This document shows positions 1,382-32,261 of a DNA stretch of 34,433 nt, piece after piece. Position numbers and translations under genes: made by a program. Position 1 is the stretch's first letter. The number at the start of each line of letters is the position of its first letter. The stretch is taken from the NCBI RefSeq assembly GCF_004146235.1, contig NZ_SELO01000039.1, positions 1-34,433 on the forward strand. Direction: 5' to 3'. Below the pieces are notes generated by a model. The model was given only the letters and a program-made list of their open reading frames with translations. It had not been told where the DNA came from and did not search any database. The DNA is from Tropicimonas sp. IMCC6043 (GTDB lineage Bacteria; Pseudomonadota; Alphaproteobacteria; Rhodobacterales; Rhodobacteraceae).

Positions 1382-3052
1382 TCAGCCATGGAATCCGAAC
1401 GCCCGCTCCTGGTCACTCCACTCCAGTGGTGGGGTTGAACGCAGGAGGCGCTTCAGGGTCAGGTCGATGGGCTGTCTGCCTTCGACAATGGATGCCTGGA
1501 TTCGGGGCGAAAGGCCGGCCAGTTGAACGATACGGGCGAGGTAGCGCTCAGAGACATTCGCTTCGGACGAGAGCCGCTTGAGTGAGGTTCCGGACTTCAG
1601 GGCGTCGGACCAGCGATGCGCATTGCGGATCGCCCGGATCATTACGGGGTCAGGTTCCGGCGCGCGGCTGCCGGCGACGATCTTCATCTCGGCGCCACGT
1701 CGCCGGCAGGTGAACGGCCGGTCGAGTTCGAGCAGGTCGGGATCCATCGAGCTGGTCGGCAAACCCGTCGCATCGGCTAACGCCGCCGCGTCGAGCGAGA
1801 TCGCAATGCGGCCTCTATCGAGTGCTCCCCCGGCGATGAGCGTGGCCGCGACGTCGATGCCGTCTGTCCGAATTCGCTTCGCGAGGTCCGCCACGCTGTC
1901 CGAGGCTACGAGGGCATCCGCCGCGTTGACGGCGGCCAGAACGGCATGGCGGGTCGCGTGATCCGCGAAGTGATTGGCCATTGCCTCGGCAACGGCAGCC
2001 TCTAAAGACGGTGCGGGCAGACGCCACCCGGTCGGATCGGCGCCACCGGAGACCAACCGGTTCGATATGTAATACCGCAACTGCTTGCCGTTCTTTCGGG
2101 CGTGCGTCGGGGTCAGCAGATCCCCGGTCTCATCCCGGAACTTGCCTTTGAGCGGAGCAGCATCTTTGCTGGTGCGACCCGAGGGCACGCCACGCCGCTT
2201 TACACTGGCGGATTGCAGCAGGTCCTGCACCTTGTCCCACAGGGACTGGTCGATGATGGCCGGATGTTTGCCGGGGAAGGTCTTTTCCTTGTGCCGGATC
2301 ATCCCGAGATAGACCGGGTTGGTGAGGATCTTGTGGACCTGGCCCCGGCTCAGAACGTTGCCTCCCTGCTCCCGGCCCGTCGAGAAGACATGGCGCTTCG
2401 AACGCAGACCGAGGGCCTCGGCCTCGCCGGTGACGACATTGAGACATCTGTGCGTGGCATAGAGGGCAAAGATGTCCTGAACCACCTTGGCCTCTTTCTC
2501 GTTGACCACCAGTTCCCGGCGCATCGGGTCGGGATGCGGGTCGTAGCCGAGCGGCGGGACCCCACCCATCCAGAGCCCCTTCTTCTTCGAGGCGGCGATC
2601 TTGTCACGGATGCGCTCGGCAGTGACCTCGCGCTCGAACTGGGCGAAGGAGAGCAGCACGTTCAGCGTCAGCCGGCCCATCGACGAGGAGGTATTGAAGG
2701 CCTGGGTGACGGAGACGAAGGAGCAGTCTCTTTCTTCGAGCCGCTCGACCAGCTTGGCGAAATCGGCCAGCGACCGGGTGAGCCGGTCGATCTTGTAGAC
2801 CACCACCATGTCGATGCGGCCGGCGTCGATGTCGGCAAGAAGGCGTTGCAGGCCGGGGCGCTCGAGCGTGCCGCCAGAAATCCCACCATCGTCGTAGCGG
2901 CCGGGCAGCATCTTCCAGCCCTCGTGGCGCTGGCTTGCGATATAGGCGGCGCAGGCCTCGTGCTGGGCATCAAGCGAGTTGAAATCCTGGTCGAGACCCT
3001 CCTCGGAGGACTTGCGGGTGTAGATGGCGCAGCGGATCCGGGGCTTGCTCAT
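1382..3052 (-). CDS. Large serine recombinase (resolvase/recombinase family)
   Basis: A 556-residue large serine recombinase that catalyses site-specific integration or excision. The N-terminal resolvase domain contains YTRKSSEEG with catalytic Ser15, the arginine motif DRLTRSL, and SFAQFEREVTAERIRDK leading into helix E. A central Recombinase domain (LGYDPHPDPMRRELVVNEKEA, then NPVYLGMIRHKEK) follows. The usual zinc ribbon seems to lack its cysteines. The C-terminal third includes a helix-turn-helix-like stretch (LSSEANVSERYLARIVQLAGLS). The start at 3052 was chosen because it overlaps the upstream stop as ATGA and begins MSKPRIRCAIYTRKS; an upstream in-frame start at 3205 would run through the DUF2924 gene. 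It is the last gene of a coupled DUF3489-DUF2924-recombinase operon, a recurrent alphaproteobacterial trio in mobile elements. Confidence 0.93.
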   Translation of the reverse strand: MSKPRIRCAIYTRKSSEEGLDQDFNSLDAQHEACAAYIASQRHEGWKMLPGRYDDGGISGGTLERPGLQRLLADIDAGRIDMVVVYKIDRLTRSLADFAKLVERLEERDCSFVSVTQAFNTSSSMGRLTLNVLLSFAQFEREVTAERIRDKIAASKKKGLWMGGVPPLGYDPHPDPMRRELVVNEKEAKVVQDIFALYATHRCLNVVTGEAEALGLRSKRHVFSTGREQGGNVLSRGQVHKILTNPVYLGMIRHKEKTFPGKHPAIIDQSLWDKVQDLLQSASVKRRGVPSGRTSKDAAPLKGKFRDETGDLLTPTHARKNGKQLRYYISNRLVSGGADPTGWRLPAPSLEAAVAEAMANHFADHATRHAVLAAVNAADALVASDSVADLAKRIRTDGIDVAATLIAGGALDRGRIAISLDAAALADATGLPTSSMDPDLLELDRPFTCRRRGAEMKIVAGSRAPEPDPVMIRAIRNAHRWSDALKSGTSLKRLSSEANVSERYLARIVQLAGLSPRIQASIVEGRQPIDLTLKRLLRSTPPLEWSDQERAFGFHG

Positions 3053-3456
3053 GACCGGGACTTTCCACTGAGACCGAAGAACCGAGGTCCCGACCAGTGG
3101 GCGCCGGTGATCTCGCGGGCGATGACCGAGAGCGAGCGCCAGCACTGACCGTTCCAGCGGAATCCGTCCTCGGTGACCTCGACAACATGGGTGATGCCGT
3201 TCCATTCGCGCAGCAGGCGGCTGCCCGGTTCCAGTTTGGCTGTCTTTGAACGTTGTCCGCGATCGTTGCCCTGCATCAGCGCTTTCCGGACTCTGGCGGG
3301 CGGGCCGCCGGACCTGCGGGTCTGGATCTCGGTGGCAAGGAAACGTCGCAGGAAGGACTGGCTCAGCCCTTTCGGTACCGGCGTTCCGAAGGTTTCGGTC
3401 CAGGCCGCGATCAACGCGGCCCGGTCCATGGTGTCGAGATCGGCGACCCGGATCAT
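3049..3456 (-). CDS. DUF2924 family protein
   Basis: A 135-residue protein matching the DUF2924 family by its features: N-terminal helical start MIRVADLDTMDRAALIAAW, a central basic stretch, the conserved LEPGSRLLREWNGITHVVEV segment, and FRWNGQCWRSLSVIAREITG, where the last portion (SLSVIAREITGAHWSGPRFFGL) resembles a small DNA- or intron-associated fold. Function of the family is unknown. It is nearly always found beside large serine recombinases in alphaproteobacterial prophage-like islands, so a role as recombinase accessory factor is plausible but unproven. Its stop overlaps the recombinase start by 4 bp, and its own start overlaps the DUF3489 stop by 4 bp, implying translational coupling. 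Confidence 0.85.
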   Translation of the reverse strand: MIRVADLDTMDRAALIAAWTETFGTPVPKGLSQSFLRRFLATEIQTRRSGGPPARVRKALMQGNDRGQRSKTAKLEPGSRLLREWNGITHVVEVTEDGFRWNGQCWRSLSVIAREITGAHWSGPRFFGLSGKSRS

Positions 3457-6034: not shown

Positions 6035-7493
6035 TCCGCATCTGGTTCGTCTCGCCGCGCTTCAGCGCAGCCGGGAGGACTTCTTCTCGTTCGTGTGGAG
6101 GGTGTTCGACACCCTCCACAACGGGCCGAACGACCGGTTTGAACCGGTTTGGCACGTCCAGGCCATGTGTCACGAGCTCGACACTGTGCGCACCGGAGAG
6201 AACAAGCGGCTGGTTATCAACATCCCTCCGCGTTGTCTGAAATCGGTGACCGTGGCTGTTGCCTATGTCGCCTATATCCTGGGACACCACCCCGAAGCCA
6301 AGATCATCGTTGCGAGCTACGGTCTCGATCTCGCACGAAAACATTCCGACGATTGTCGGCGCGTCATGTCCTCCAGATGGTACCGGCAGATGTTTCCCGC
6401 GACCCGGCTCGCGAAGAAGGGCAACACTGCCGAGGAAATCCGGACAACGAAAGATGGCAGCCGCAAGGCCGTCTCGATCGGCAGTTCGGTCACCGGCCAC
6501 GGAGCAGACTACATCATCATCGACGATTTGCTGAAGGCCGGGGATGCGAACTCGGAAGCGGAACTCGTTCGGGCGCAGGAGTTCATCGAGGGATCTCTGC
6601 TGTCCCGGTTCAACAATCAGGCAGAGGGTCGCGTGGTGATGATCGCGCAACGGCTCCATGAACTGGATCCGCCGGGGTACCTGCTCGACAAGGGGACCTA
6701 TCGGCATCTCAACCTGCCGGCGATCGCCGAGGACAACGAGGTCGTCCCGATCGGGCGCGGCAAGGTTCATCGCCGTCGGCCCGGCGATCTCCTGTTTCCC
6801 GAGCGGCTCGATCGCGAGACGCTGGACCGAATGCGTCGGGAGATGGGATCCGCCGTTTTCAACTGTCAATACCAGCAGAACCCGATCGCCCCTGACGGGT
6901 CGCCCCTTCGCTGGGAATGGTTCGGCACGTATGAGAAAGTTGAAGACCGGCGCTGGTATCAGCTGGTCATCCAGAGCTGGGACACGGGAACCTCCGCAGA
7001 CCCTCAGTCGGATTTCTCGGCCTGTACCACTTGGGGATTCCGGCATGGTAGCTGGTACCTGCTGGATGTCTGGCGTGGCAAGCTGGACTATCCGCAACTC
7101 AAGGCGAAGGTCCTGCACTCGGTCAGTTTGTGGGATCCCGAAAAGGTCTTGATCGAGGATGCCGCCACTGGCCGGCCCCTTCTGCACGAGTTGTTTCAGG
7201 ATGATAAACGTTTCAAAAGCGTTACGCCCGAAAAGGAGAAGGAGATCCGCTTCGCGGCGGCCTGTGCGCCGGTGGAAGCGGGAAAGGTCTTCCTGCCGCG
7301 CGAGGCGCCTTGGCTGCCCGCGTTCAAGCGCGAGTTGCAGGGCTTTCCCCGAGGGCGCAACGACGACATGGTCGACAGCTTCAGCCAGTTCCTGAACTGG
7401 ACCAAGGGGACTGGCTTCTGGCGGGCTCTGCCGCGGGACCATCCGCTCAAGATCGAGCGCCGGGAACGGAGCCGGGAGCGGCCCCGGCGGTAG
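6021..7493 (+). CDS. Phage terminase large subunit
   Basis: A 490-residue DNA-packaging motor protein. The N-terminal ATPase has a deviant Walker A, PPRCLKS at 69-75 (INIPPRCLKSVTVAV), and Walker B-like YIIIDDLLKA. The C-terminal RNase H-like nuclease is indicated by SWDTGTSADPQSDFSA and EKVLIEDAATGRPLL, with acidic metal ligands, and by a late FPRGRNDDMVDSF segment, all typical of the Terminase_6C type. The start at 6021 (MTAPDPHLV) overlaps the preceding gene; the longer frame upstream is non-homologous. No portal, protease or capsid gene follows, so packaging functions are lost here. The stop is 13 bp before the initiator-tRNA fragment, suggesting the element was truncated or is a satellite. 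Confidence 0.93.
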   Translation: MTAPDPHLVRLAALQRSREDFFSFVWRVFDTLHNGPNDRFEPVWHVQAMCHELDTVRTGENKRLVINIPPRCLKSVTVAVAYVAYILGHHPEAKIIVASYGLDLARKHSDDCRRVMSSRWYRQMFPATRLAKKGNTAEEIRTTKDGSRKAVSIGSSVTGHGADYIIIDDLLKAGDANSEAELVRAQEFIEGSLLSRFNNQAEGRVVMIAQRLHELDPPGYLLDKGTYRHLNLPAIAEDNEVVPIGRGKVHRRRPGDLLFPERLDRETLDRMRREMGSAVFNCQYQQNPIAPDGSPLRWEWFGTYEKVEDRRWYQLVIQSWDTGTSADPQSDFSACTTWGFRHGSWYLLDVWRGKLDYPQLKAKVLHSVSLWDPEKVLIEDAATGRPLLHELFQDDKRFKSVTPEKEKEIRFAAACAPVEAGKVFLPREAPWLPAFKRELQGFPRGRNDDMVDSFSQFLNWTKGTGFWRALPRDHPLKIERRERSRERPRR

Positions 7494-7506
7494 TCTCGAT
7501 CATCGA

Positions 7507-7559
7507 CCTTCAGGCTCATAACCTGAAGGTCGTAGGTTCAAATCCTACCCCCGCAACGA
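7507..7559 (+). other. 3' half of initiator tRNA-Met gene (attachment-site remnant)
   Basis: The segment reads as an anticodon arm with CTCATAA loop (anticodon CAT, 7516-7518), variable loop, a T arm (GTAGG-TTCAAAT-CCTAC), and the 3' acceptor strand CCCCGCA followed by A. The CCCCGCA end, ending in A72, is the hallmark of bacterial initiator tRNA. The 5' acceptor strand and D arm are absent: upstream is the terminase end. A 3' tRNA half beside element genes is the usual trace left by integration into a tRNA gene. It is not expected to make a functional tRNA. Confidence 0.85.
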
Positions 7560-7933: not shown

Positions 7934-10240
7934 TCATCCTATGCGGGCGATACGATCCTGCGAGACCGGCTCTGCTTCCGTCTTGCAGGGTAGAAGCCTG
8001 CTCATCAGTTGCTCTGCCAATTTCAACGTTGATTGGGGCAGCGCCATAGCATCTGTTTCAAGCAGACGGGCCTTTACCCGCGTTGCAAGTTGGAGCCGCC
8101 AGTCAGGCGGCAGCGAGATACGCTCTTGCGCGGCCCAGGCTTCGACCTGATCAACGAGCGGCAGGTCCGGTTTGACATGATCGATGAAGAGCCGATCCGG
8201 TCGGCGTTCGATCCGATCCACAAGTGGGGCCACAAGATCGAGCCCGATGAGATCCTCAATTTGCGCTCTCTTCATACCCACGATTTCGTCGAGCCCGATT
8301 ACCCGATCCGGGCAGGCTGCGTGGCTCGAAGCGCGCAGGCGTTTGGCCTGAACCCGCCCAGAATCCGATCCGTCGAGAAGAACTGGCGGCAGATCCGTGT
8401 CTTCGTTGGCGAGGAGAGCCGCCATGGCCTGCATGACGCGTTGCCCGGTCGCGGGAGCAAAGACGATCTCTCGCCGAGGTTTAAACCGGCCCTCGCCAAT
8501 GAGCAGAGTCTTGAGCAGGGAGAGATAGGTCTGGTCGGTTGTGCTGCCAACCAGCACCGGCTGGGCACCCCCGAGCATTGCCTCCGCCACCGCGATGTTC
8601 AGCGCTGAGCGCACTGCGAAGCTCGCACCTCGTTTTGTGTCTGATCCTTCCTCGGAGCGCAGATCGTTCGACACCAGGGTAGATCCATCCCGTCCAACAA
8701 AGACCTTTCGAGCGCGTTCAAGCCGATCGGCATCCACGAGGAATGGCGAATGGGTGGTGTAGACGATCTGGTTCGTTGCGGCGAGCCCGTCAAAGAAGGT
8801 GGAAAGATCGCGCTGCGCCAGCGGATGCAGCGAGTGCCCCGGCTCGTCCAGCAAAAGCACCGCGTTGCGATGCACACCCTGGCTTTCATGGAGAAAGACC
8901 AGGAAAAAGCTCAGGAACCACTGTAGTCCGGTCGAACGGTTCTCGAGTTCGACCTCCTGCGGCCGACGGGCATCATTGACCCAGATGCGGAAGTGGTTTC
9001 CATCGGCTTCGAACCGAAAGCGGTAATCGCCCTGTTTCCACCACTGGCCAAAGCGTTCAGTGAGTTTTGTGCTTGCCGATTGCAGCAGGATTGACCGAGT
9101 CCTCTTGGCCTCGGCAATCTCGCTCAGAAGCTGAGCGTCTGGGCCCTCGTCTGGTTTGCGCGACTGCTTTAGGAAAGCGAACAGTTTTCCAGCCTTGTTC
9201 TCTTCCGCAAGGCGCAATTCCGTGGCCTCGTCGCGGATTTCCCGAAAATCCCTGCCAAGTTGCAGGATTTCTTCCGCCTCCAGCCCGACGAAACCGAAGA
9301 GAACCCGGAGCGTGCGCGCCTTGGCTGCTTCTTTTGCACCGAGATCACCACGGCCCATGTTCTCGACGACATGGGGTAGGTAGATCTCCGCATCGAGGTT
9401 TCCGTAGTTCGAATAGTAGACGAACGTCGGCATCCGCGAGAGGACCGCGTCGCGAACATCGTCTATCTGGCCTGGATCAGGTTTCAAAATCGCGGCCATG
9501 CGCTTGCCCAGTTCGGTTTGGAGCGACCGGAGTTCTGCTACGATAACCGACGACGCGGGCGGATCCTCCGGAATGACCGCGGCGACCTTGTCGCGAAGTC
9601 GGATCAGGTCATTGGCCGTCAGAGGCGCACAACCGTCCAACTCGGTTTCCATCTCGCGAATTGTCTGCAATGCGGTCGACTTGAGATCGGCTTGGCTCTC
9701 CGGCGGGGCCACTTGCAGAATTCGGTGTTTTGAGGCTGACAGGATCGGGCTGACATCTACACGCTCTTCGAGCTTCTTCGGACGATACAAGGGAAAGCTG
9801 ACGGTGTAGCTGCCGTCGTAGTTTCGTCCGACACAGACGGTCGATGTGAACTCGACCGGTATCTTTGCAAGTTCGGCCAGCTTCGCGGCGTCCTCGCCGG
9901 TATCGAACTCGGCAGAGACAAACTGGAACGCATCGGGATTGGCGCGTATCGACCCGAAAAGGGCCTTGGGGAAGTCAGATGTCGGTTTGATCTCGCCGCC
10001 GCCCGCGGGGTTGAGCTTCCAGAGCGGCAAGAGAAGGTTGGTCTTGCCGGACTCGTTCACGCCGATCAGCGCGGTGACGTGATCCAGTTCGAGATACCCG
10101 GAGTCGGTGACGGACCGGAAGTTTGTGACACGGTAGCGACGCAGCTTGAAGCCGGTTTCCCGCTTGCGGACTGCCGTTTCCGGACACCCAGAAACAGCCT
10201 TCGAGCCCACTTCCGGGGCAATTGACTTGTCAAAATGCAT
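7934..10240 (-). CDS. OLD-family ATPase/TOPRIM nuclease-like protein
   Basis: A 768-residue protein with the layout of a class 1 OLD (overcoming lysogenization defect) nuclease. The ABC-type ATPase half has Walker A GVNESGKT (60-67), a long insertion (about 180-400), Walker B LLLDEP (462-467) with signature-like ENRSTGLQW before it, and a switch histidine in YTTHSPF. A TOPRIM-like half follows: VLVGSTTD (562-569) and LLDGSDSG (621-628). The first TOPRIM motif normally carries Glu (VEGxxD/E); here it is VGSTTD, so the metal-binding glutamate appears lost, while the DxD-like motif persists. OLD proteins act in anti-phage defence or DNA processing. The gene stands alone, has a strong AAGGAG site before ATG 10240, and is preceded by a sigma-module promoter motif at 10350-10374. 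Confidence 0.8.
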   Translation of the reverse strand: MHFDKSIAPEVGSKAVSGCPETAVRKRETGFKLRRYRVTNFRSVTDSGYLELDHVTALIGVNESGKTNLLLPLWKLNPAGGGEIKPTSDFPKALFGSIRANPDAFQFVSAEFDTGEDAAKLAELAKIPVEFTSTVCVGRNYDGSYTVSFPLYRPKKLEERVDVSPILSASKHRILQVAPPESQADLKSTALQTIREMETELDGCAPLTANDLIRLRDKVAAVIPEDPPASSVIVAELRSLQTELGKRMAAILKPDPGQIDDVRDAVLSRMPTFVYYSNYGNLDAEIYLPHVVENMGRGDLGAKEAAKARTLRVLFGFVGLEAEEILQLGRDFREIRDEATELRLAEENKAGKLFAFLKQSRKPDEGPDAQLLSEIAEAKRTRSILLQSASTKLTERFGQWWKQGDYRFRFEADGNHFRIWVNDARRPQEVELENRSTGLQWFLSFFLVFLHESQGVHRNAVLLLDEPGHSLHPLAQRDLSTFFDGLAATNQIVYTTHSPFLVDADRLERARKVFVGRDGSTLVSNDLRSEEGSDTKRGASFAVRSALNIAVAEAMLGGAQPVLVGSTTDQTYLSLLKTLLIGEGRFKPRREIVFAPATGQRVMQAMAALLANEDTDLPPVLLDGSDSGRVQAKRLRASSHAACPDRVIGLDEIVGMKRAQIEDLIGLDLVAPLVDRIERRPDRLFIDHVKPDLPLVDQVEAWAAQERISLPPDWRLQLATRVKARLLETDAMALPQSTLKLAEQLMSRLLPCKTEAEPVSQDRIARIG

Positions 10241-10349
10241 CGGTGTCTCCTTCAGATCCGTATTTGCCGCAATTTGGCAACTGTCGTGCGTCGCTCGATG
10301 CAGAACGCTTCGCTAGCGCCGTCGAGCATGAGAGTTGATTTATACGGAA

Positions 10350-10374
10350 AACGCGTGAGATCCGGTTTTCATCC
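10350..10374 (-). promoter_or_regulatory. ECF-type promoter motif upstream of OLD-family gene
   Basis: The minus strand reads GGATGAAA (10374-10367), a 13-bp spacer, then CGTT (10353-10350). It is the same bipartite pattern as upstream of the sigma operon and the DUF2333 operon. Predicted transcription would start near 10343, giving a leader of about 100 nt before ATG 10240. Confidence 0.65.
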
Positions 10375-10439
10375 CGACTTTCGCGCCTTGGTCGAGAAGA
10401 CGGTGTAGATCCCTTGAAACCCAGAAACCGGCCCCTTTC

Positions 10440-10479
10440 AAATGAAATGGCGCGCAGAGCCACGATGCCCTACGCGCCA
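10440..10479 (-). terminator. Possible terminator of the DUF2333-DUF1127-DUF1476 operon
   Basis: On the minus strand a 7-bp stem TGGCGCG/CGCGCCA (10479-10473 with 10454-10448) with an 18-nt loop is followed by TTTCATTT. It sits 25 bp after the last stop codon of the operon and before the OLD promoter. The long loop and interrupted T-tract make it weak. Confidence 0.35.
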
Positions 10480-10504
10480 GATGACTACCGAGGTGTGAGG
10501 ATAT

Positions 10505-10825
10505 TCAGCCAGCCTTGTCGTACAGAACCACGGCGCGCGCATCCTGGAGGAACTCATCTAGCTTGCGGCGCAATAATGACTCGTCAGCCAAGTCCCCAAG
10601 ATGTTCCTGGAGGATCGCAATGGCGCTGTCGTCGCCGGGCGCACGCATGTGCTCGCGGATCAGTCTCTCGACGAGCCTGTCCACTCCGTTTTCCGGATCG
10701 CCCTTCAACAAGGCGGCCCAGCTAGCCACGAAACGCAAACTCCGAATCCTTACCTGGAATTCCAGTTCCTCATCGCGCGCGAATTTCGCCTCTATCGATT
10801 TCTGGCGATGCTTAAATAAGGCCAT
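10505..10825 (-). CDS. F1-ATPase zeta-subunit-like protein (DUF1476)
   Basis: A 106-residue protein of the DUF1476 family, the natural F1-ATPase inhibitor (zeta subunit) of alphaproteobacteria. The signature EAKFARDEELEFQVRIRSLR (residues about 12-31) matches the family core E-x-K-F-x-x-D-E-E-L-x-F, followed by a WAALL segment and a C-terminal helix ending RRKLDEFLQDA. Zeta proteins block ATP hydrolysis by the synthase through the N terminus; here the N-terminal ten residues (MALFKHRQKS) differ from the typical TTFDDRE start, so inhibitory ability is uncertain. Start at 10825 is supported by AAAGGAG five bases upstream; a GTG at 10873 overlapping the preceding stop is the alternative. It is probably a stress-specific paralogue, being last in a sigma-linked operon. 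Confidence 0.75.
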   Translation of the reverse strand: MALFKHRQKSIEAKFARDEELEFQVRIRSLRFVASWAALLKGDPENGVDRLVERLIREHMRAPGDDSAIAILQEHLGDLADESLLRRKLDEFLQDARAVVLYDKAG

Positions 10826-10869
10826 CTTGCTCCTTTCCAAATGTGCTGCTTGATTGAAGTCGTTCAGGC

Positions 10870-11235
10870 TCACGCCACTTGCAGATCCTTTTTGTCGGTC
10901 GTTAGCTCGGGTTCGAAAGAAAGCATTTTCTGCGCTTCTGCTCGCGCTTCCACAGGCGCTTCGAGCAACGCAACGACCTCTTCTCCGAACGTGCGCTCCC
11001 GTTCCGCAGCAAGGATCATGTCTTCGACAGTATCGTAGAGGCTGCCGCGGGACACGCCGATCAGTTCAAGCTGGCGGTTCGAAAGGCGGTCAAAGGCAGC
11101 CATTATGGCGGCGATGTCACGTCCTAAACGCCAATCGTCATAGGCTTGCCGTAGGGCTGATAAGCCCCACCGGCGCGGTGCACCGTCCGCTTCGGGCCGG
11201 GATTGGCCAGAATTAGAGAGAAGGCTTCTGAACAT
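10870..11235 (-). CDS. DUF1127-like small protein
   Basis: A 121-residue protein. The middle segment, WRLGRDIAAIMAAFDRLSNRQLELIGVSRGSLYDTVEDMI, has the DUF1127 pattern (aromatic/basic start, L-S-x-R-x-L-x-x-I-G-x-x-R). DUF1127 proteins of alphaproteobacteria are small arginine-rich factors linked to RNA turnover, phosphate or stress responses; this one is longer than the usual 45-70 residues because of an N-terminal tail and a C-terminal acidic helix. AGGAGA precedes the ATG. The gene begins 33 bp after the DUF2333 stop, so both are likely co-transcribed. Confidence 0.6.
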   Translation of the reverse strand: MFRSLLSNSGQSRPEADGAPRRWGLSALRQAYDDWRLGRDIAAIMAAFDRLSNRQLELIGVSRGSLYDTVEDMILAAERERTFGEEVVALLEAPVEARAEAQKMLSFEPELTTDKKDLQVA

Positions 11236-11268
11236 CTTTGATGTCTCCTGCTATTATTAGGCCGCGGG

Positions 11269-12264
11269 TCAGACGGCGAGGACGTTGACAGCTTCTTCCA
11301 GCTGCAGGATCGCGCGTTTCATGTAGAATCCCTGCAACGCGAGATGATTGGCGAAGATCGACCTGTCACGGTCGCCATTCAGCACGACAAACGGTTGAAG
11401 CTGAGCGCCTTTTTCGAGACCGTAGAGCGCCTGGCTCCAGATCGGGCCAAGGCTGCGCTCCTGAATCACCCGGTCGAAGTCCTGCCCCAGTCCGGAGAGC
11501 AGAACATGGTACCCGTGCAGCATGCCCTTGTTGTGGTAGAATACGTCATCGGCGCGACGGCTGAAGATCCACCAGCCGGTGTTCTGCGCCCGCTCGAGTT
11601 GCGCAGTCTGCGCACCAATATCGGCGGAGATACGGGAGAGCGTGGCTGCCAGCGTATCGGCGCGCCGCTCGAACACGGCCTCGCCTTGGGCAAGGCGAAG
11701 ATTGTAACGCTCCAGCGCCGCGAGCCCCTGGCGATATTGCGATTCGGACGAGACTGAAGGCAGCAGCGAGCGAGACGGCTCCCAGATCCAGATATCGGGC
11801 GGAAATTGCAGGAAACCGGTTGCACGCTCCAGATCCGGATCGTCGCTCGACGATCCGCGGGTACGTGCGATCTGGTCGAGCATCTCGAAACTGAAGCGCC
11901 CGACCGCGTCGATAATCCCGGCCTGGAAATTCGGCATGTTGTCGAGCACCGTGGCCGGAGCAATAATCGGGTCGTTCGGCGTCCAGCCGTTTTCGTCGAG
12001 CTCGCGTCGGATGAGTGCGGCCGCGGCGGAGATGGCCGCACTTCCGCCACCATCCTTGGTCCCGTTTGCGGGCGGATCGGTGATGATCGAGTGCTTCAGT
12101 GCGCCGAAAACGCCATAGGTAATCACAGCCCAGAGCACGATCCCGGCCCCTAGGACACGCACAATCTGCAGAACAGGAAAACGACGGTGCCTGCGCCGCG
12201 AATTCACGGGCGCAGGCAGTAGCGATGCTCTGCGAGTGTCGGTTGGTGAGGTTTGGGTTGTCAC
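11269..12264 (-). CDS. DUF2333 family membrane-anchored protein
   Basis: A 331-residue protein resembling the DUF2333 family of unknown function. A basic N-terminal cytoplasmic tail (NSRRRHRRF) precedes one membrane segment (VLGAGIVLWAVITYGVFG) at about residues 36-53; the rest is predicted extracytoplasmic and helical, with the conserved stretches GWTPNDPI, FQAGIIDAVGRFSFEMLDQIARTRG, and a C-terminal YGLEKGAQLQPFVVLNG. The GTG at 12264 (MTTQTSPTD) is preferred over ATG 12345: AAGGGGA precedes it, and the sigma-type promoter at 12295-12319 lies between the two candidate starts. First gene of a three-gene operon divergent from the sigma gene; it may be an envelope component sensing or executing the stress response. 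Confidence 0.7.
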   Translation of the reverse strand: MTTQTSPTDTRRASLLPAPVNSRRRHRRFPVLQIVRVLGAGIVLWAVITYGVFGALKHSIITDPPANGTKDGGGSAAISAAAALIRRELDENGWTPNDPIIAPATVLDNMPNFQAGIIDAVGRFSFEMLDQIARTRGSSSDDPDLERATGFLQFPPDIWIWEPSRSLLPSVSSESQYRQGLAALERYNLRLAQGEAVFERRADTLAATLSRISADIGAQTAQLERAQNTGWWIFSRRADDVFYHNKGMLHGYHVLLSGLGQDFDRVIQERSLGPIWSQALYGLEKGAQLQPFVVLNGDRDRSIFANHLALQGFYMKRAILQLEEAVNVLAV

Positions 12265-12294
12265 TGGGCTTTCCCCTTGCGGCTTCAACCAAAC

Positions 12295-12319
12295 AACGCC
12301 GCAACAGCGGATTTCATCC
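12295..12319 (-). promoter_or_regulatory. ECF-type promoter motif for the DUF2333 operon
   Basis: Minus strand GGATGAAA (12319-12312), 13-bp spacer, CGTT (12298-12295). Transcription would begin near 12288, about 24 nt before the GTG start at 12264. Divergent from the sigma promoter 57 bp away. Confidence 0.7.
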
Positions 12320-12375
12320 GTGGAGATGAAAAAACATGACGCCAAGACCGGCTCGAAAAAAAATCCGCGGGCAGG

Positions 12376-12400
12376 GGATGAAAAGCTGGCGCCAGACGTA
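12376..12400 (+). promoter_or_regulatory. ECF-type promoter motif for the sigma/anti-sigma operon
   Basis: Plus strand GGATGAAA (12376-12383), 13-bp spacer, CGTA (12397-12400). The spacer contains a perfect 10-bp palindrome CTGGCGCCAG (12386-12395), a possible extra operator. Predicted start near 12407, about 32 nt before the sigma ATG. Suggests autoregulation. Confidence 0.65.
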
Positions 12401-12438
12401 TGTGTGTCAGGATGTGATTGTGGGAGTTTTCACTGAAG

Positions 12439-12948
12439 ATGGATGCGCGCAGCGAATTGGAAAAGAACCTTGACGAATATGTTGCCAGTCTGAAGCGGTA
12501 TGCGATGGTGCTGACGCGAAACCGGGACGCCGCTGAGGATCTCGTTCAGGAAACGCTTGCAAAGGCGATTGCCGCTGCCGATCAATGGCAGCCAGGCAGC
12601 GATCTGCGGGTCTGGTTGTTCCGCATTCTGCACAATACGCATGTGAGCGAGCGTCGTCGGCACAAGGTTCGCGAAGATGCTTGGCTCCATATTCCGGAAA
12701 CGGTCGAGAATACCGACCCGACCAAACGGATCGAGTTGCAGCAGGTGCTCGATGCCTTGCAGGAGTTGCCCGAAGCGCAGCGTCTGCCCATCGTGCTCAT
12801 TGCCATCAAGGAGATGAGCTACGCCGATGCCGCGCGTACGCTCGATCTTCCGCTTGGTACTTTTTACAGCCGCCTCGGGCGGGGCCGTGCAGCGCTCCGC
12901 AAGATCGTGGGTGGACTGAAATCGAAACGGCTGAAACTGGTCGTTTAA
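12439..12948 (+). CDS. ECF sigma factor
   Basis: A 169-residue extracytoplasmic-function sigma factor with only regions 2 and 4. Region 2 (about 14-75) holds LKRYAMVLTRNRDAAEDLVQETL and the DNA-melting/-10 segment LRVWLFRILHNTHVSERRR, resembling the EcfG/ECF15 type. Region 4 (about 100-155) holds LQELPEAQRLPIVLI and the helix-turn-helix MSYADAARTLDLPLGTFYSRLGRGR, which reads the -35. The ATG at 12439 starts the domain-aligned protein (MDARSELEKN); an earlier TTG at 12418 adds nothing. The stop lies 13 bp before the anti-sigma start. Recurrent GGATGAAA-N13-CGTT/A motifs around it are probably its recognition sites. Confidence 0.93.
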   Translation: MDARSELEKNLDEYVASLKRYAMVLTRNRDAAEDLVQETLAKAIAAADQWQPGSDLRVWLFRILHNTHVSERRRHKVREDAWLHIPETVENTDPTKRIELQQVLDALQELPEAQRLPIVLIAIKEMSYADAARTLDLPLGTFYSRLGRGRAALRKIVGGLKSKRLKLVV

Positions 12949-12961
12949 GGAGGCTGATACA

Positions 12962-13750
12962 ATGACAATAGAAGCCCAGGAAACATTGAATGCTTACGTC
13001 GATGGCGAGCTTGGTCCCGAGGAAGCCGCCGAACTGGAGGCGCGTCTGACCAGTGATCTGGACGCCCGCCAAACGCTTGAAGCTCTGTCACGTCAGAAAC
13101 GCCTTGTCGGCGACGCGCTGCAAGCGATCGATATCGGGCCAGCGGACTTGCAGACTGAGCGGTTGAAACGCCGGTTGGCCGACAGGCTGGCCCAGCGCAC
13201 CGTCCCGCGGCCTTACAGGCCCAGCCTCGGCTGGCTTCGCGCCGGCGCGCAGGTGGCCGCCGCGTGCGCCCTCATAGCCTTTGGCTGGTGGGGGCATGCG
13301 ACGGTCACCGCCCCGGTCACGGGGGTGCCTGAATATGTCTCGGAAGCTGTCGGGGCCCACCAGGTCTTTGCCGACGACCCCGACTACCCTGTCGAGTTCG
13401 CAGGTGCCGCGGTCGATGGTGTGGCCGACTGGTTCTCGGGAAAGGTCGGCGTTCCGATCACGGCGCCGGATCTTGCCGAATATGGAGTGGCGCTCGTCGG
13501 CGCGCGCCTTCTGGGCACCAAGGAGGGACCGCTTGCTCAGTATATCTATGAAGATGACAAAGGTGCGCGCTATTCGCTGACCTTGGCCCAGCATCCGAAG
13601 AAGGAGCCTATCGGGCCGCTTACCATCGTCGATTATCCGAACCGGTCGGTTGGATACTGGCGCACGGCCGATGTCGACTTCGCCCTCGTGGGCGAGGGCG
13701 GCAAGGCGGATGTCCAGAAGATTGCTATGGACCTTTCCAGCAAGATTTGA
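12962..13750 (+). CDS. Membrane-bound anti-sigma factor
   Basis: A 262-residue single-pass membrane protein. The cytoplasmic N-terminal part has the anti-sigma fold start (ETLNAYVDGELGPEEAAELEARL, residues about 7-29), without the His-x3-Cys-x2-Cys zinc motif. One membrane helix lies at about 93-112 (RAGAQVAAACALIAFGWWGH); the remaining 150 residues are predicted periplasmic. AAGGAGG, overlapping the sigma stop codon, precedes ATG 12962. It should sequester the sigma factor at the membrane and release it on an envelope or redox signal; the periplasmic domain shows no recognised sensor. A strong terminator follows. Confidence 0.85.
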   Translation: MTIEAQETLNAYVDGELGPEEAAELEARLTSDLDARQTLEALSRQKRLVGDALQAIDIGPADLQTERLKRRLADRLAQRTVPRPYRPSLGWLRAGAQVAAACALIAFGWWGHATVTAPVTGVPEYVSEAVGAHQVFADDPDYPVEFAGAAVDGVADWFSGKVGVPITAPDLAEYGVALVGARLLGTKEGPLAQYIYEDDKGARYSLTLAQHPKKEPIGPLTIVDYPNRSVGYWRTADVDFALVGEGGKADVQKIAMDLSSKI

Positions 13751-13815
13751 CCTTGGCCGCTCGCGATTTCCGCGAGCCAACACGCATCGTGGCGGCCAAA
13801 TGGGGTGGCCGCCAC

Positions 13816-13854
13816 AAAAGACGACCCGGACACTGTGTCCGGGTCGTCTTTTTT
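13816..13854 (+). terminator. Strong rho-independent terminator after the anti-sigma gene
   Basis: A 14-bp perfect G+C-rich stem, arms 13820-13833 and 13835-13848, flanked by A-tract upstream and six T's downstream (13849-13854 region). The A/T flanks make it work in both directions. It closes the sigma/anti-sigma operon 66 bp after its stop. Confidence 0.9.
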
Positions 13855-13876
13855 ACGTCCGCCCCCAGGACACTTG

Positions 13877-13901
13877 GGATGAAACCGGATCGCTATGCGT
13901 T
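13877..13901 (+). promoter_or_regulatory. ECF-type promoter motif downstream of anti-sigma gene
   Basis: GGATGAAA (13877-13884), 13-bp spacer, CGTT (13898-13901). Preceding base is G, as at the OLD and sigma sites. A second GGATGAAA at 13906-13913 lacks a matching CGTT. No gene starts soon after, but a terminator does, hence the small-RNA proposal. Confidence 0.65.
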
Positions 13902-13907
13902 CTTGGG

Positions 13908-14039
13908 ATGAAACACACGGGAGCGCGCGCGAAATCATCGCGAACAATCCGATACCCATCTGCCTGCGGAGCGTCCCCCTACCTGCTCACATCCTGCTCC
14001 GCACCTTGAGGGCCGACCGCTGCGTCGGCCCTCTTTTTT
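13908..14039 (+). ncRNA. Candidate sigma-dependent small RNA
   Basis: A transcript starting about 7 bases after the CGTT element and ending at the T-tract at 14039 would be about 130 nt. It lies between two terminators in a segment without a credible open reading frame. The 3' end is a strong hairpin. A pyrimidine-rich single-stranded stretch GTCCCCCTACCTGCTC (about 13973-13988) could pair with Shine-Dalgarno sequences. Promoter and terminator are read from sequence; the RNA itself is inferred. Confidence 0.5.
14008..14039 (+). terminator. Rho-independent terminator
   Basis: A 10-bp perfect stem GAGGGCCGAC (14008-14017) with GTCGGCCCTC (14024-14033), 6-nt loop, followed by six T's (14034-14039). 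It ends the candidate small RNA and insulates the antiporter operon. Confidence 0.9.
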
Positions 14040-14051
14040 GGCACTCGGCAG

Positions 14052-14076
14052 GGATGAGACCGCGCCCTCGGGCGTC
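14052..14076 (+). promoter_or_regulatory. Weak copy of the ECF promoter motif ahead of the mrp operon
   Basis: GGATGAGA (14052-14059), 13-bp spacer, CGTC (14073-14076): one mismatch in each half compared with the strong sites, with the same spacing and the same preceding G. It lies 13 bp after a terminator and about 157 bp before mrpE. Could be chance. Confidence 0.35.
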
Positions 14077-14232
14077 TTTTGAATGTTGGTCGCGCAGCCA
14101 ATGCCGGCCGCGCCCTGAAAAAACAACAGCAACTGAAGACCCGGATCCGGGCCCCTCTGGCAACCGAATGGCAGCCGGTTGCGATGTCGGATCCTTCGAA
14201 CAGCGCCGTTTGACGCTGCCCAAGGAGATCCG

Positions 14233-14814
14233 ATGAAAGTTCGTCATGAATTCCCGCGGGAACTGCACCTGCAAACCGATCACCTCGTAATACTGCCCCG
14301 ACGTTCGCGCCGGGCATCCGTCGGCGCTGGCAGGGTGCGGGCAATGCTCGGGACCGGCGCGGTGCTGGCCGCGATCTGGGCCGGGCTTCACTGGAACGAT
14401 CCCGGGAGCTGGGTGATCGGCCTGCCGACCGTGATCGCCGGTGCCGCGGCGACAAGCTTGCTGCCCGCCGCACCTCCACCAGCCATCTCGCTTTTTGGGG
14501 CATTGCGGCTGGCGTGGTTCGCCTTCGCGGGCGTTCTGCGCGGCGCGCGCGACGTGAGCCTGTTCAGCCTTGCGCCAGGTCGGCTGCGTTCGGGGTGCCT
14601 GACTGTTCGTACCCGCCTCCCCGAGGGCCGTCCGCGCAGGCTGTTTGCCCTGCTCATCACGCTCCTGCCCGGAACCCTAACCGCCCGGCTGGAGGATGAC
14701 CGGCTCACCGTTCATGCGCTCGATTGCGGTCCCGCAACACGGGCCGATCTCGATGCGCTGGAAACTCGCATCGCCGGTCTTTTCCGCCTGTCACTCGATG
14801 GAGACGTCTCATGA
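14233..14814 (+). CDS. mrpE: Na+/H+ antiporter subunit MrpE
   Basis: A 193-residue MnhE/MrpE-family membrane protein, a small subunit of the multi-subunit Mrp cation/proton antiporter. Two hydrophobic segments follow a basic N terminus (MLGTGAVLAAIWAGLHW and the following IGLPTVIAGAAATSLL), and then the family segment RLAWFAFAGVLRGARDVSLFSL and LFALLITLLPGTLTARLEDDRLTVHALD, which is the best-conserved MrpE stretch. AAGGAG precedes ATG 14233; an upstream in-frame start at 14179 is not supported. It overlaps mrpF by 4 bp. First of eight tightly packed genes transcribed together. Confidence 0.88.
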   Translation: MKVRHEFPRELHLQTDHLVILPRRSRRASVGAGRVRAMLGTGAVLAAIWAGLHWNDPGSWVIGLPTVIAGAAATSLLPAAPPPAISLFGALRLAWFAFAGVLRGARDVSLFSLAPGRLRSGCLTVRTRLPEGRPRRLFALLITLLPGTLTARLEDDRLTVHALDCGPATRADLDALETRIAGLFRLSLDGDVS

Positions 14815-21270: not shown

Positions 21271-21492
21271 CCTTCAAGTTCGACTTTCTCGGCTACACAT
21301 TCCGGCCGCGACTGGTGAGCAAGAAGAGCGGGGGCATGGGCGTCTCTTTCAGTCCTGCCGCCGGTCCGAAGGCGCTCAAGGCGATCCGGGGAACCGTCCG
21401 CCGATGGTCATTGCATCTTCGCAGCGATAAGGCTCTGGACGATCTGGCACGGATGTTCAACGCGTACATCCGGGGCTGGATCAACTACTGGC
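21261..21492 (+). pseudogene. C-terminal fragment of a group II intron reverse transcriptase/maturase
   Basis: An open stretch reads YPTFKFDFLGYTFRPRLVSK, then GMGVSFSPAAGPKALKAIR, and MFNAYIRGWINYW. These are the end of the RT domain and maturase (X) domain of LtrA-like proteins, F-x-F-L-G-Y/F-T-F-x-P-R and the Y-I-R-G-W-I-N-Y motif. The N-terminal RT core with YADD is absent, and homology stops near 21492 in unrelated sequence. No domain V was recognised just downstream. Remnant only. Confidence 0.85.
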
Positions 21493-21951
21493 CTGCCCCT
21501 ATCGGGTGGTCCGGTTTCAGTCTTAGTGCACGACGGGCCTGGGTGCTACGGTTGGGGCATTCCTTCATCCTCCAACTGGCTCGAAAGCCTACTTCTGGGA
21601 GGACCACTTTTCAGGGGGCAGACCAACGCAAGCTTGCCGGAGGTCGGCAACAAAATCGGCCGCGTCGAAGCCTTTGTCGGCGGCCAGCGTCAGCTGCCGG
21701 GGCGATCCGGGGGAGTGACGGTGGATCATGTCCAGCGCAGCGCGACGTTCGGCATGACCGCCCAATCCAAACTACCGGATTTGTGTAGTGAATCCCGGTC
21801 CAACCTTCGCGAAACGACGGCCTCCTGTTAGGTGGCGTGAAGCGCGAGCTGTGACACGTTGCCGAATTGACCCTGTTTCGGCGCAACTGCTACGCATTGG
21901 CCAATCCCGGTGTCCCCACGCGATAGCCCTCACCGGGTTGGGCCAAGCAAG
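21493..21951. other. Debris region upstream of torD
   Basis: About 460 bp without an intact gene. It contains an IS5-type transposase fragment (21625-21772) on the minus strand, otherwise unplaced sequence. A TTGACC (21867-21872) with 18-bp spacing to TACGCA (21891-21896) is a weak candidate promoter for torD. Confidence 0.5.
21625..21772 (-). pseudogene. IS5-type transposase fragment
   Basis: The minus strand encodes GHAERRAALDMIHRHSPGSP, then QLTLAADKGFDAADFVADLR. The L-T-L-x-A-D-K-G-F/Y-D motif holds the second catalytic aspartate of IS5/IS1182-type DDE transposases. Both ends are missing. It lies between the intron fragment and torD and confirms that this is a recombination scar. Confidence 0.75.
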
Positions 21952-22605
21952 ATGGATACGCTCAGAACGTTGCCAGAGGCAGCAGAGGACATTCGTCCCT
22001 CGCTGTATCTCTGGCTTTCGCGCGTAATGAAAAGCGAACAAACTCCTGATACTCTTGCCGGTTACCAATCGGAAGAGGGGCGGGAGGTAATGTTGGAACT
22101 AGCAGCGGTCCCGGAATTGTCCGAAGGTATCACCGAGATGATCGCGGTGGCTGACGGTTGGACCGATCTGGACAGGACAGCACGCGACCTCGCAGTTGTC
22201 TACGCTCGTCTTTTCCTTGGCGCCGGCGACCGGTCGCAGCAGGTGCCGGTGTACGAATCCGCTTTCACCAGTGAGAAAGGCCTCATCTGTCAGCAGGCCA
22301 CCGTCGAGATCGAGCGATTGCTGCGCGACCATGGGTTGAACACCGATGGCTGGCGCGAGCCGGCCGATCATATCGCTGTGGAACTGGAATTCCTCGCCTG
22401 GCTTGCCGGAAAGGCCGGCGAGACCAAGGACCCTGGCGCGGAAGCGGGCCAGCGCGAGCTGCTTTCCCGGCACCTGCTCCTGTGGGGGCCGGACTTCTGC
22501 GCGCTGTGTATCAAGCGCGACACCAGCGGCTTCTATGCCGCCGCCGCCCGCGTGCTGCACGACGCGTTGGGCAGCGAAAAGAGACGTCTGATCCGTCCCA
22601 AATAA
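21952..22605 (+). CDS. torD: TorD-family molybdoenzyme chaperone
   Basis: A 217-residue helical protein of the TorD family, the cytoplasmic chaperone that binds the TorA signal peptide and apoenzyme before cofactor insertion and Tat export. Family features are the first helix RPSLYLWLSRVM, the segment DLAVVYARLFLGAG with the following VPVYESAFTSEKGLICQQATVEI (the P-x-Y-E-S motif), and the later DHIAVELEFLAWL (the D-H-x-x-x-E-L motif). ATG 21952 starts the family-like N terminus (MDTLRTLPEAA); GTG 21910 is an alternative. It directly precedes torA. A hairpin follows its stop. Confidence 0.88.
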   Translation: MDTLRTLPEAAEDIRPSLYLWLSRVMKSEQTPDTLAGYQSEEGREVMLELAAVPELSEGITEMIAVADGWTDLDRTARDLAVVYARLFLGAGDRSQQVPVYESAFTSEKGLICQQATVEIERLLRDHGLNTDGWREPADHIAVELEFLAWLAGKAGETKDPGAEAGQRELLSRHLLLWGPDFCALCIKRDTSGFYAAAARVLHDALGSEKRRLIRPK

Positions 22606-22606
22606 C

Positions 22607-22637
22607 GCCCCTGGGCATTTGGTCGATGCGCAGGGGC
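22607..22637 (+). promoter_or_regulatory. Hairpin in the torD-torA intergenic region
   Basis: GCCCCTG (22607-22613) pairs with CAGGGGC (22631-22637), and inside it GCAT pairs with ATGC around a TTGGTCG loop. It starts one base after the torD stop and lacks a T-tract, so an mRNA processing or stability element that separates chaperone from enzyme dosage is more likely than a terminator. Confidence 0.45.
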
Positions 22638-22735
22638 AGTTACCGGATATCCGGAACACAGATTGCGTGCGGGCTTTGGCCTGCCAAGACCGGCATCAGC
22701 ATCACATGAGACTACCACGGAACAGAGGATTCATA

Positions 22736-25168: not shown

Positions 25169-25193
25169 CACCGGAATCAGTCCTCTCGAAACG

Positions 25194-25220
25194 GGCGGGC
25201 GCCGGTTGGTGCCCGCCTTT
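25194..25220 (+). terminator. Hairpin with short T-run between torA and torC
   Basis: GGCGGGCGCC (25194-25203) pairs with GGTGCCCGCC (25208-25217) with one G-T wobble and a GGTT loop, followed by TTT. It may attenuate transcription into torC rather than stop it fully, as torC starts 27 bp later. Confidence 0.5.
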
Positions 25221-25246
25221 GCTAGTTTGCGCAAGAACAATGGAAC

Positions 25247-32132: not shown

Positions 32133-32187
32133 CATGGGAGCGACCCCTTGAACATCATCTTCATAGAACCGGCCGGCTGAACAATGG

Positions 32188-32257
32188 GAGCCGGATGATG
32201 CGAGAGTATCACGTCCGGTTCTGAGAGAGCGCGGGGGTGAAAATCCCCCGCGCCACT
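32188..32257 (+). ncRNA. Group II intron domains V and VI (3' end remnant)
   Basis: A 34-nt domain V (32188-32221): stem GAGCCGGA paired with TCCGGTTC, internal CGAGAG, and the AGC catalytic triad at its start. Domain VI follows: GCGCGGGGG (about 32229-32237) paired with CCCCCGCGC (32245-32253) around a TGAAAAT loop. The intron 3' end lies near 32254-32260 and the downstream exon is the IS6 transposase gene. The rest of the intron, including its maturase gene, is missing here. The upstream boundary is not visible; it lies between 32133 and 32188. Confidence 0.85.
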
Positions 32258-32261
32258 CGCC

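Follow-up and report, generated by a model that had tools for sequence, protein, structure and literature searches.

Among described extracytoplasmic function (ECF) sigma factors, those of the EcfG (ECF15) type work with the partner proteins NepR and PhyR, and the RpoE system of Escherichia coli and the AlgU system of Pseudomonas aeruginosa include small RNAs that depend on the sigma factor. For ECF26, the group of Sinorhizobium meliloti RpoE1, RpoE3, RpoE4 and RpoE6, the literature gives a consensus promoter of GGAATA and GT (PMC6180224) and names a COG5662-type anti-sigma factor as the usual partner (PMC3511301). Here we describe a 34,433-nt stretch of DNA from Tropicimonas sp. IMCC6043 (NZ_SELO01000039.1, hereafter the window) which carries an ECF sigma factor gene (12439..12948, plus strand) surrounded by copies of a bipartite motif, GGATGAAA-N13-CGTW. 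Judging from sequence comparison, this motif is very probably the −35/−10 promoter of that sigma factor, and the predicted targets are the sigma operon itself, a divergent DUF2333 operon, a gene for an OLD-like ATPase and an operon for an Mrp-type Na+/H+ antiporter, with a small RNA as a less certain member.

Four exact copies of the motif lie in the window. A preliminary description of this locus had reported them, and their coordinates, strands, halves and 13-bp spacing are all as it claimed. Two are on the minus strand, at 12295..12319 ahead of the DUF2333 operon (predicted +1 near 12286) and at 10350..10374 ahead of the OLD-like gene (predicted +1 near 10341). The other two are on the plus strand, at 12376..12400 ahead of the sigma and anti-sigma genes (in the CGTA form, with a predicted +1 near 12409) and at 13877..13901 ahead of the putative small RNA (predicted +1 near 13910). 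A fifth, variant site, GGATGAGA-N13-CGTC, occupies 14052..14076 on the plus strand, ahead of the Mrp operon, with a predicted +1 near 14085. The preliminary description did not name it, although the interval given there stops precisely at its last base. Dinucleotide shuffling of the window gives an expectation of 0.01 sites (100 shuffles, none with four), spacers of 10–17 between GGATGAAA and CGTW yield no extra window site, and in the whole genome (5,460,374 bases) the four window copies are the only exact ones, the reversed-pattern control giving none. The shuffles, the genome-wide count and the spacer comparison together rule out a chance origin. Allowing one mismatch in GGATGAAA-N12-GCGTW returns 15 places in the genome, the four window sites and 11 others; the four of these 11 that were inspected, on contigs C83, C91 and C64 and at C90:7199, sit within long open reading frames (ORFs), and were rejected as further targets. 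The site at 12295 also fixes where DUF2333 begins, as had been proposed. The promoter is downstream of that ORF's first start codon (TTG 12345), and the GTG at 12264, 22 nt past the predicted +1, aligns with the called starts of two relatives (L006 and L009), so that GTG 12264 fits as the start.

A search of a genome collection with the sigma protein left 80 of 103 loci. The core set comprises 33 loci, the window and those 32 relatives that are at least 60% identical (L005–L035 and L045), and two comparison sets were held apart: nine loci at 40–50% identity (L036–L044) and 39 other ECF loci (L046–L084). Within 3 kb of the sigma gene the core loci carry 61 exact motifs with a spacer of 13, none with spacers of 9–12 or 14–17 and one with a spacer of 18, and for the relaxed form GGATGA-N15-CGT the count is 94, vs one to five at other spacers. 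The 39 other ECF loci (649 kb) hold five exact motifs and the nine loci at 40–50% identity (51 kb) hold two. When 69 exact sites from 34 loci (L039 included) were aligned, columns that had played no part in their selection proved to be conserved: G precedes CGT in 63 sites, a purine occupies position 33, the expected +1, in 63, and T is found at positions 25, 26 and 27 in 41, 42 and 47 sites, respectively. Conserved columns of this kind are as expected of a promoter that starts near position 33.

The sites are also found at orthologous genes. GGATGA or GGATTA occurs no more than 260 nt upstream of the sigma gene in 31 of the 33 loci and on the divergent side likewise in 31, the divergent exceptions being L012 and L013. 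We scored a gene as a candidate target if a site fell in the 300 nt upstream of it; genes were called with a simple hexamer model, and those that were miscalled, cut by a contig end or absent drop from the denominators (hence 23 sigma and 30 DUF2333 genes rather than 33). By this count sites precede 22/23 sigma genes, 28/30 DUF2333 genes, 15/17 mnhE genes (the first gene of the Mrp operon), 8/9 genes for an SPW-type membrane protein, 5/6 OLD-like genes, 15/25 genes of a small-protein family (family 4; the 15 are mostly in soda-lake-type metagenome-assembled genomes, MAGs) and 1/2 dynamin-like genes. The figures for anti-sigma-type genes and for all other genes are 0/21 and 1/277. The mnhE and family 4 genes of L029, L032 and L035 diverge from each other, and each has its own site. 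The mnhE-side site reads GGATGAAA-N13-CGTC in L005 and L006, GGATGAAA-N13-CGTA in L012, GGATGAAA-N13-CGTT in L008 and GGATGAnn-N13-CGTn in L007, L009, L010, L011, L013 and L017, and the fourth window site has a counterpart in L006, L007, L008, L010, L011, L012, L013 and L017. Conservation at orthologous loci, the test on which the preliminary description had staked its proposal, is therefore clearly favourable, and the comparison supports its idea of a sigma-type promoter joining the sigma gene, the DUF2333 operon, the OLD-like gene and a possible small RNA. The Mrp operon, with the terC RNA in its leader, had escaped it.

The motif and the sigma factor also occur together. In 60 related genomes, the window's own included, the sigma factor is found at E 1e-30 or better in four (its own genome, G001, G002 and G032), and only those same four possess a cluster of at least two exact sites in 5 kb; of the rest, 26 lack any match and 30 have one to five, no two of which are that close, with the qualification that the genomes are drafts, in which site clusters split over contigs could escape. 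Of the 36 genomes in the window's family, only the four that bear the sigma factor have DUF2333, and the same holds for this kind of mnhE. Four genomes of other families possess DUF2333 without the sigma factor at this threshold, and no site is present in the approximately 1 kb before it. Genome G032 is instructive, since its sigma and mnhE genes are on contig C24 and its DUF2333, family 4, dynamin-like and OLD-like genes, together with a gene for a 97-aa protein, are on contig C2. There the DUF2333, 97-aa and OLD-like genes each have a site of their own, and a fourth site faces away from DUF2333, at the sigma gene's usual place. The motif thus tracks the target genes, not mere nearness to the sigma gene. 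The regulon had been called self-contained, which is correct for the exact sites of the window's genome and incorrect for G032, where the sigma gene and several targets are on different contigs. It is the spacing, the position at orthologous genes and the co-occurrence with the sigma gene that lead us to link the motif to this sigma factor.

Two relatives bear on how the module is distributed. In L143 (CP049029.1, plasmid pSC52_1) a mobilizable plasmid of 391 kb carries the sigma, anti-sigma and DUF2333 genes and the Mrp operon in one place, and transposases of the types IS481 and IS5 are nearby. L034 is Ectothiorhodospira haloalkaliphila, a gammaproteobacterium that carries the module with the same motifs, and its sigma factor is placed at the base of the rhodobacterial sigma factors in a tree of 60 sigma factors and among them in a tree of 33 rows. 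Horizontal transfer, in either direction, likely accounts for the module in L034.

The sigma gene encodes 169 aa from ATG 12439, with Pfam matches to Sigma70_r2, Sigma70_r4_2 and PhyR_sigma2 above their cut-offs, and its product is 95% identical to that of Tropicimonas marinistellae. Membership of the ECF family is indicated by the presence of sigma2 and sigma4 domains only, in about 170 aa, by the membrane anti-sigma gene that adjoins it and by the motif ahead of it in 31/33 loci. It resembles the EcfG type in the CGTT-like −10 and in the PhyR_sigma2 match, and S. meliloti RpoE5 (ECF15) is 39% identical to it over 141 residues, a percentage above that of RpoE6 with a lower score (187 vs 256). 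However, the −35 here is GGATGA, not GGAAC, its partner appears to be a membrane anti-sigma factor in place of NepR and PhyR, and RpoE5 is on a separate, very long branch. That the −10 is EcfG-like and the −35 unlike GGAAC had been stated before, and indeed 33/33 loci have GGATGA or GGATTA on at least one side; an EcfG-type GGAAC promoter was rejected on this count, no scan having been aimed at GGAAC.

ECF26 is the closer comparison. In two S. meliloti RpoE6 promoters printed in PMC6180224, CGT is at the same distance as here, and in one RpoE1 and one RpoE4 promoter printed there it is one base further, by our own count of the distances. As in ECF26, the anti-sigma gene comes after the sigma gene, and RpoE6, in a neighbouring clade, is 35% identical to the window sigma factor over 157 aligned residues. 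In contrast to the GGAATA of the ECF26 consensus in that source, the −35 of the window's clade is GGATGA, the sigma4 helix reads GTFMSRL or GTFYSRL where the ECF26 form is GTVMSRL, and the predicted regulon holds Mrp, DUF2333, SPW and DUF1127-like genes. With ECF26-like geometry and a sister clade on one side and the GGATGA −35 on the other, we call the protein a putative ECF26-like sigma factor with a variant −35 and not, as far as its promoter goes, a member of ECF26. The promoter had been put forward as an undescribed type, which holds in part: its geometry is that of ECF26 promoters as printed, and it is the −35 that differs, relatives having GGATTA forms of it. Among the matches listed in a search of the open PMC literature, we found no GGATGAAA described as an ECF −35 and no such regulon. 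The main ECF reclassification (Casas-Pastor, 2021) reportedly predicts promoters for ECF groups, and those predictions may already list the motif.

The −35 varies among more distant relatives at the same distance from the −10. It is GGATTA in Oleisolibacter and Azospirillum lipoferum and in the sigma promoters of L015, L019, L026, L028 and L032, GGATTA or GGATGA in Skermanella, and GGAATA in Geminicoccus (with TGTT), L136, L138 and L141; in L040 GGAATA is one base further off. Skermanella mucosa has a second site, ahead of an operon with SPW and DUF2333 genes. The sigma4 helix generally carries GTF[MY]SR in sigma factors with GGAT[GT]A sites and GTVMSRL in those with GGAATA sites, S. meliloti RpoE6 included. 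In the 33-row tree, built with two references, the window belongs to a 22-row clade (support 82/87) and RpoE6, the sole ECF26 reference, to an 8-row sister clade (84/74), all modest supports, and RpoE5 is far outside on its long branch. In the 60-sigma tree, where −35 labels were assigned by hand, the window is in a 34-row clade (97/92) of which 34/34 have GGATGA sites. There GGATGA recurs outside the clade (L039, L132, L133 and L144), the label requires six changes, and L141, with GGAATA and a long branch, is placed among the GGAT[GT]A sigma factors. Given the six changes and the placement of L141, this tree does not settle the order in which the −35 changed.

Could something other than this sigma factor read the motif? 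A fixed bipartite spacing is typical also of dimeric operators, so the sites might be bound by a conventional activator or repressor acting on the same genes. We think this very unlikely, as the halves are neither inverted nor direct repeats, the second half resembles an ECF −10 and stands just ahead of a conserved purine, and the sites both precede and co-occur with an ECF sigma gene; the spacing, moreover, equals that of the two RpoE6 promoters printed in PMC6180224. Slightly less probable still is that the promoters are read by another ECF sigma factor of the cell, such as the 45%-identical paralogue on contig C215. The genome does hold paralogues with similar sigma4 helices, but over the 60 genomes the clustered motif follows the window sigma factor, and upstream of the C215 ORF, ahead of another reading frame, is GGAATAAT-N13-CGTA, so the specificity of that paralogue may differ.

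Reading the motif as the promoter of the window's own sigma factor nevertheless leaves a number of observations that count against it or against details of it. L018 and L031 have no plus-side site before the sigma gene, mnhE lacks a site in L018 and L034 (2/17), DUF2333 lacks one in L012 and L013 (2/30), and the mnhE site of the window itself is off consensus at two positions. Ten of the 25 family 4 genes have no site, and all ten are on the same strand behind DUF2333. As for the match between sigma4 helix and −35, GTL occurs exceptionally with GGAT[GT]A (L017 and L145) and with GGAATA (L040 and L119), and the correlation is confounded by shared ancestry.

The gene after sigma (12962..13750, plus strand) encodes the candidate anti-sigma factor. 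Its N-terminal anti-sigma domain has a zf-HC2 match just above the cut-off, one membrane helix is predicted, and the AlphaFold model, which has one hydrophobic helix, ends in a C-terminal domain with block means of 80–95 pLDDT. A Foldseek search with this model returned MucB or RseB entries as all of its first 12 matches (best E 1.7e-4, probability 1.00). The C-terminal domain is presumably periplasmic, and an envelope-state sensor fused to the anti-sigma factor would be the natural reading. This arrangement recalls the RpoE–RseA–RseB system of E. coli and the AlgU–MucA–MucB system of P. aeruginosa, which likewise have an ECF sigma factor and a single-span anti-sigma factor, with the RseB-type fold match as a tentative third point; the differences are that the RseB-like domain here seems to lie within the anti-sigma factor, and that promoter and regulon are others. 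Against the resemblance, the RseB match spans approximately 95 columns at 16–19% identity, its TM-score over the whole chain is 0.27, and sequence profiles find no RseB match in the anti-sigma factor. In two relatives there is also a 97-aa protein (L118:6366–6659, which is on contig C2 of G032, and L007:2573–2866) that resembles the N-terminal half of the anti-sigma factor without its membrane helix. A site precedes its gene by approximately 200 nt in L118 and is lacking in L007, and the protein is possibly a soluble second anti-sigma factor or a decoy under the sigma factor's own control.

Taken together, these features suggest the following circuit. The adjacent membrane-spanning anti-sigma factor would hold the sigma factor inactive until a signal at the envelope, one probably tied to salt or alkaline stress, acts on the RseB-like periplasmic domain and releases it. 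The freed sigma factor would transcribe its own operon, providing positive feedback together with new anti-sigma factor, as well as the divergent operon of DUF2333 and the DUF1127-like gene, the OLD-like ATPase gene, a short two-hairpin RNA, which in five relatives forms the 3′ end of the mRNA for an SPW-type membrane protein, and, with the terC RNA in its leader, the operon of the Mrp Na+/H+ antiporter. Haloalkaline or salt-linked envelope stress is our leading guess for the signal, with about an even chance of being right. It is suggested by the Na+/H+ antiporter among the targets and by the names of the relatives, 20 of the 32 being either MAGs whose sampling codes we take to belong to soda-lake projects or isolates whose names denote haloalkaliphiles. 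The haloalkaline part of the guess depends on those names, however, and the collection is rich in soda-lake MAGs, which makes this evidence weak.

Downstream of the fourth site, on the plus strand, we predict a small RNA of approximately 130 nt (13910..14039) with a conserved two-hairpin element at 13956–14039 and a terminator stem at 14008–14033. In an alignment of eight loci, 97.9% of cells pair and 8/18 pairs show a compensatory change, vs 3.3 in shuffles and 0–2 with slid partners. Of the five pairing measures, four beat 500/500 shuffles, and the fifth (further pair types), which was reached by 103/500 shuffles, speaks against the element. An RNA model built from the element found all eight loci and L008 among 44 sources. 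In the 60 genomes it found the four sigma-bearing ones, with weak matches in G025, G030 and at a second place in G032; the RNAs of G025 and G030 were rejected as family members, no motif site being present in their loci. The match to the mmgR/suhB small RNA (RF00519) is 15.8 bits vs a gathering threshold of 41.

Whether the fourth site drives a functional RNA is a closer call than the identity of the promoter. In L006, L007, L010, L011 and L013 the element is the 3′ untranslated region of an SPW-type gene (below the Pfam cut-off in L006, and annotated as SPW in the Skermanella record), so the window's copy could be a mere leftover, 3′ end plus terminator, of an SPW-type gene that has been lost, an explanation to which we give somewhat less than an even chance. 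In favour of a leftover, L014, L017, L019 and L023 have an SPW gene without the element, and L005 keeps the element without any site before it, which leaves the small RNA noted in the preliminary description uncertain even though a covarying element does follow the site. A loop of the RNA (13987–13996) and the beginning of the leader of the sigma mRNA (12408–12417) are complementary over 10 nt, with z scores (100 mononucleotide shuffles each) of −2.15 in the window, −2.94 in L005, −2.04 in L012 and −1.61 in L010. In the other five loci z is −0.23 to 1.59; the complementarity is thus not conserved in most relatives, and pairing of the loop with regulon leaders gave no lead, a result that again suits the leftover. 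What argues for an RNA in its own right is that the upstream hairpin, which has a C/U-rich loop and is not needed for termination, covaries nonetheless (5/9 pairs changed on both sides), and that site and element persist without an SPW-type ORF in the window, L008 and L012. L005 too has the element without such an ORF.

The leader of mnhE contains a full-length match to the terC RNA (Rfam RF03067) at 14139..14199 on the plus strand, scoring 58.3 bits against a gathering threshold of 39.9. Each of the four sigma-bearing genomes has a single terC match, just before mnhE. Four relatives without the sigma factor differ: in three the RNA stands ahead of a TerC-family gene, and in the fourth ahead of a gene of the Na/Ca exchanger family. 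An Rfam scan of eight core loci found terC in L008, L009 and L017 and none above threshold in L016, L029, L032, L034 and L035. The terC RNA is a candidate regulatory RNA for which, to our knowledge, no ligand has been found, and its occurrence ahead of Na+/H+ antiporter, TerC and cation-exchanger genes narrows the search for one.

All of this can be drawn into one scheme, which we consider improbable as a whole. A clade related to ECF26-like sigma factors would have re-specified its −35 among GGAATA, GGATTA and GGATGA, tracked by Val or Phe in sigma4. It would operate a two-layer ion-stress circuit in which an anti-sigma factor with a built-in RseB-type sensor controls Mrp transcription, the terC RNA of the leader gates expression by intracellular ion or pH, and a sigma-dependent small RNA that arose from an SPW mRNA exerts feedback on the sigma mRNA; plasmids would carry the module between alphaproteobacteria and haloalkaliphilic gammaproteobacteria. 

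The predicted regulon itself, whose promoter is conserved among marine and soda-lake relatives, would bring a sodium/proton pump together with membrane proteins, and perhaps with a small RNA, under one control. It is clean and testable, its −35 is unlike those of the ECF26 and EcfG types characterised so far, and the relatives provide a series of naturally occurring variants, of promoter and of sigma4 helix, from which a code between sigma factor and promoter might be read. It also supplies a predicted regulation for DUF2333, SPW-type and DUF1127-like proteins and, by association, a possible role for them in ion or envelope stress.

The remaining target genes can be described briefly. The DUF2333 protein (11269..12264, minus strand, from the GTG start; PF10095, 81.6 bits) has an N-terminal hydrophobic helix and an all-helical predicted model. 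A fold search with it gave no PDB match at E 0.001 or better, no NCBIfam match was found, and the sequence search was uninformative. Behind it on the same strand are the family 4 protein (10870..11235, 121 aa), weakly DUF1127-like in that 7/22 members of the family match DUF1127 (best E 0.0045), and, at the end of the operon, an ATPase-inhibitor-zeta-like protein (10505..10825; PF07345, 57.8 bits) whose gene is an accessory one, present in the window and L006 only and with its own site in 0/2. OLD family nucleases have an ATPase domain followed by a catalytic TOPRIM domain with Glu in its first motif. The OLD-like gene of the window (7934..10240, minus strand) matches AAA_15/AAA_21, and Pfam at E 0.01 detects the ATPase domain only, without TOPRIM; in an alignment, 8/8 sequences have G, R or Q where that Glu would be expected. 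To call the product an OLD-type nuclease, as had been done, is therefore too strong.

On the plus strand a terminator-like hairpin follows the anti-sigma gene (13816..13855); it was seen in the sequence and is not listed by the pattern scan, and Rfam gives only weak matches there, far below gathering. The Mrp operon starts with mnhE (14233..14814, Pfam MNHE) and continues on the plus strand to about 21096 with F, G, MbhD/MnhB, C and antiporter subunits (Pfam MrpF, PhaG_MnhG, MbhD/MnhB, Oxidored_q2 and Proton_antipo_M), in an order that follows the annotation of CP049029.1, the last subunit (to 21096) being taken from the ORF list only.

Elsewhere in the window, a tRNA match at 7487–7555 is just above the Rfam threshold (32 vs 29 bits) and is unconfirmed by ARAGORN. 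A search of a phage collection gave no match. A maturase-domain remnant lies downstream of the Mrp operon at approximately 21375–21491, and, apart from it, there is a group II intron RNA match at 32186–32261 (Rfam, 58.3 bits). Also after the Mrp operon, 21910–26410 encodes a nitrate-reductase-delta/TorD-type chaperone, a molybdopterin oxidoreductase and a TorC-like cytochrome, as in respiration of the TMAO/DMSO type. The left end of the contig carries an IS6 family transposase (253–960) and a large recombinase (1382–3205) whose best NCBIfam match, CcrB, is far below the cut-off; together they possibly mark the border of a mobile element.

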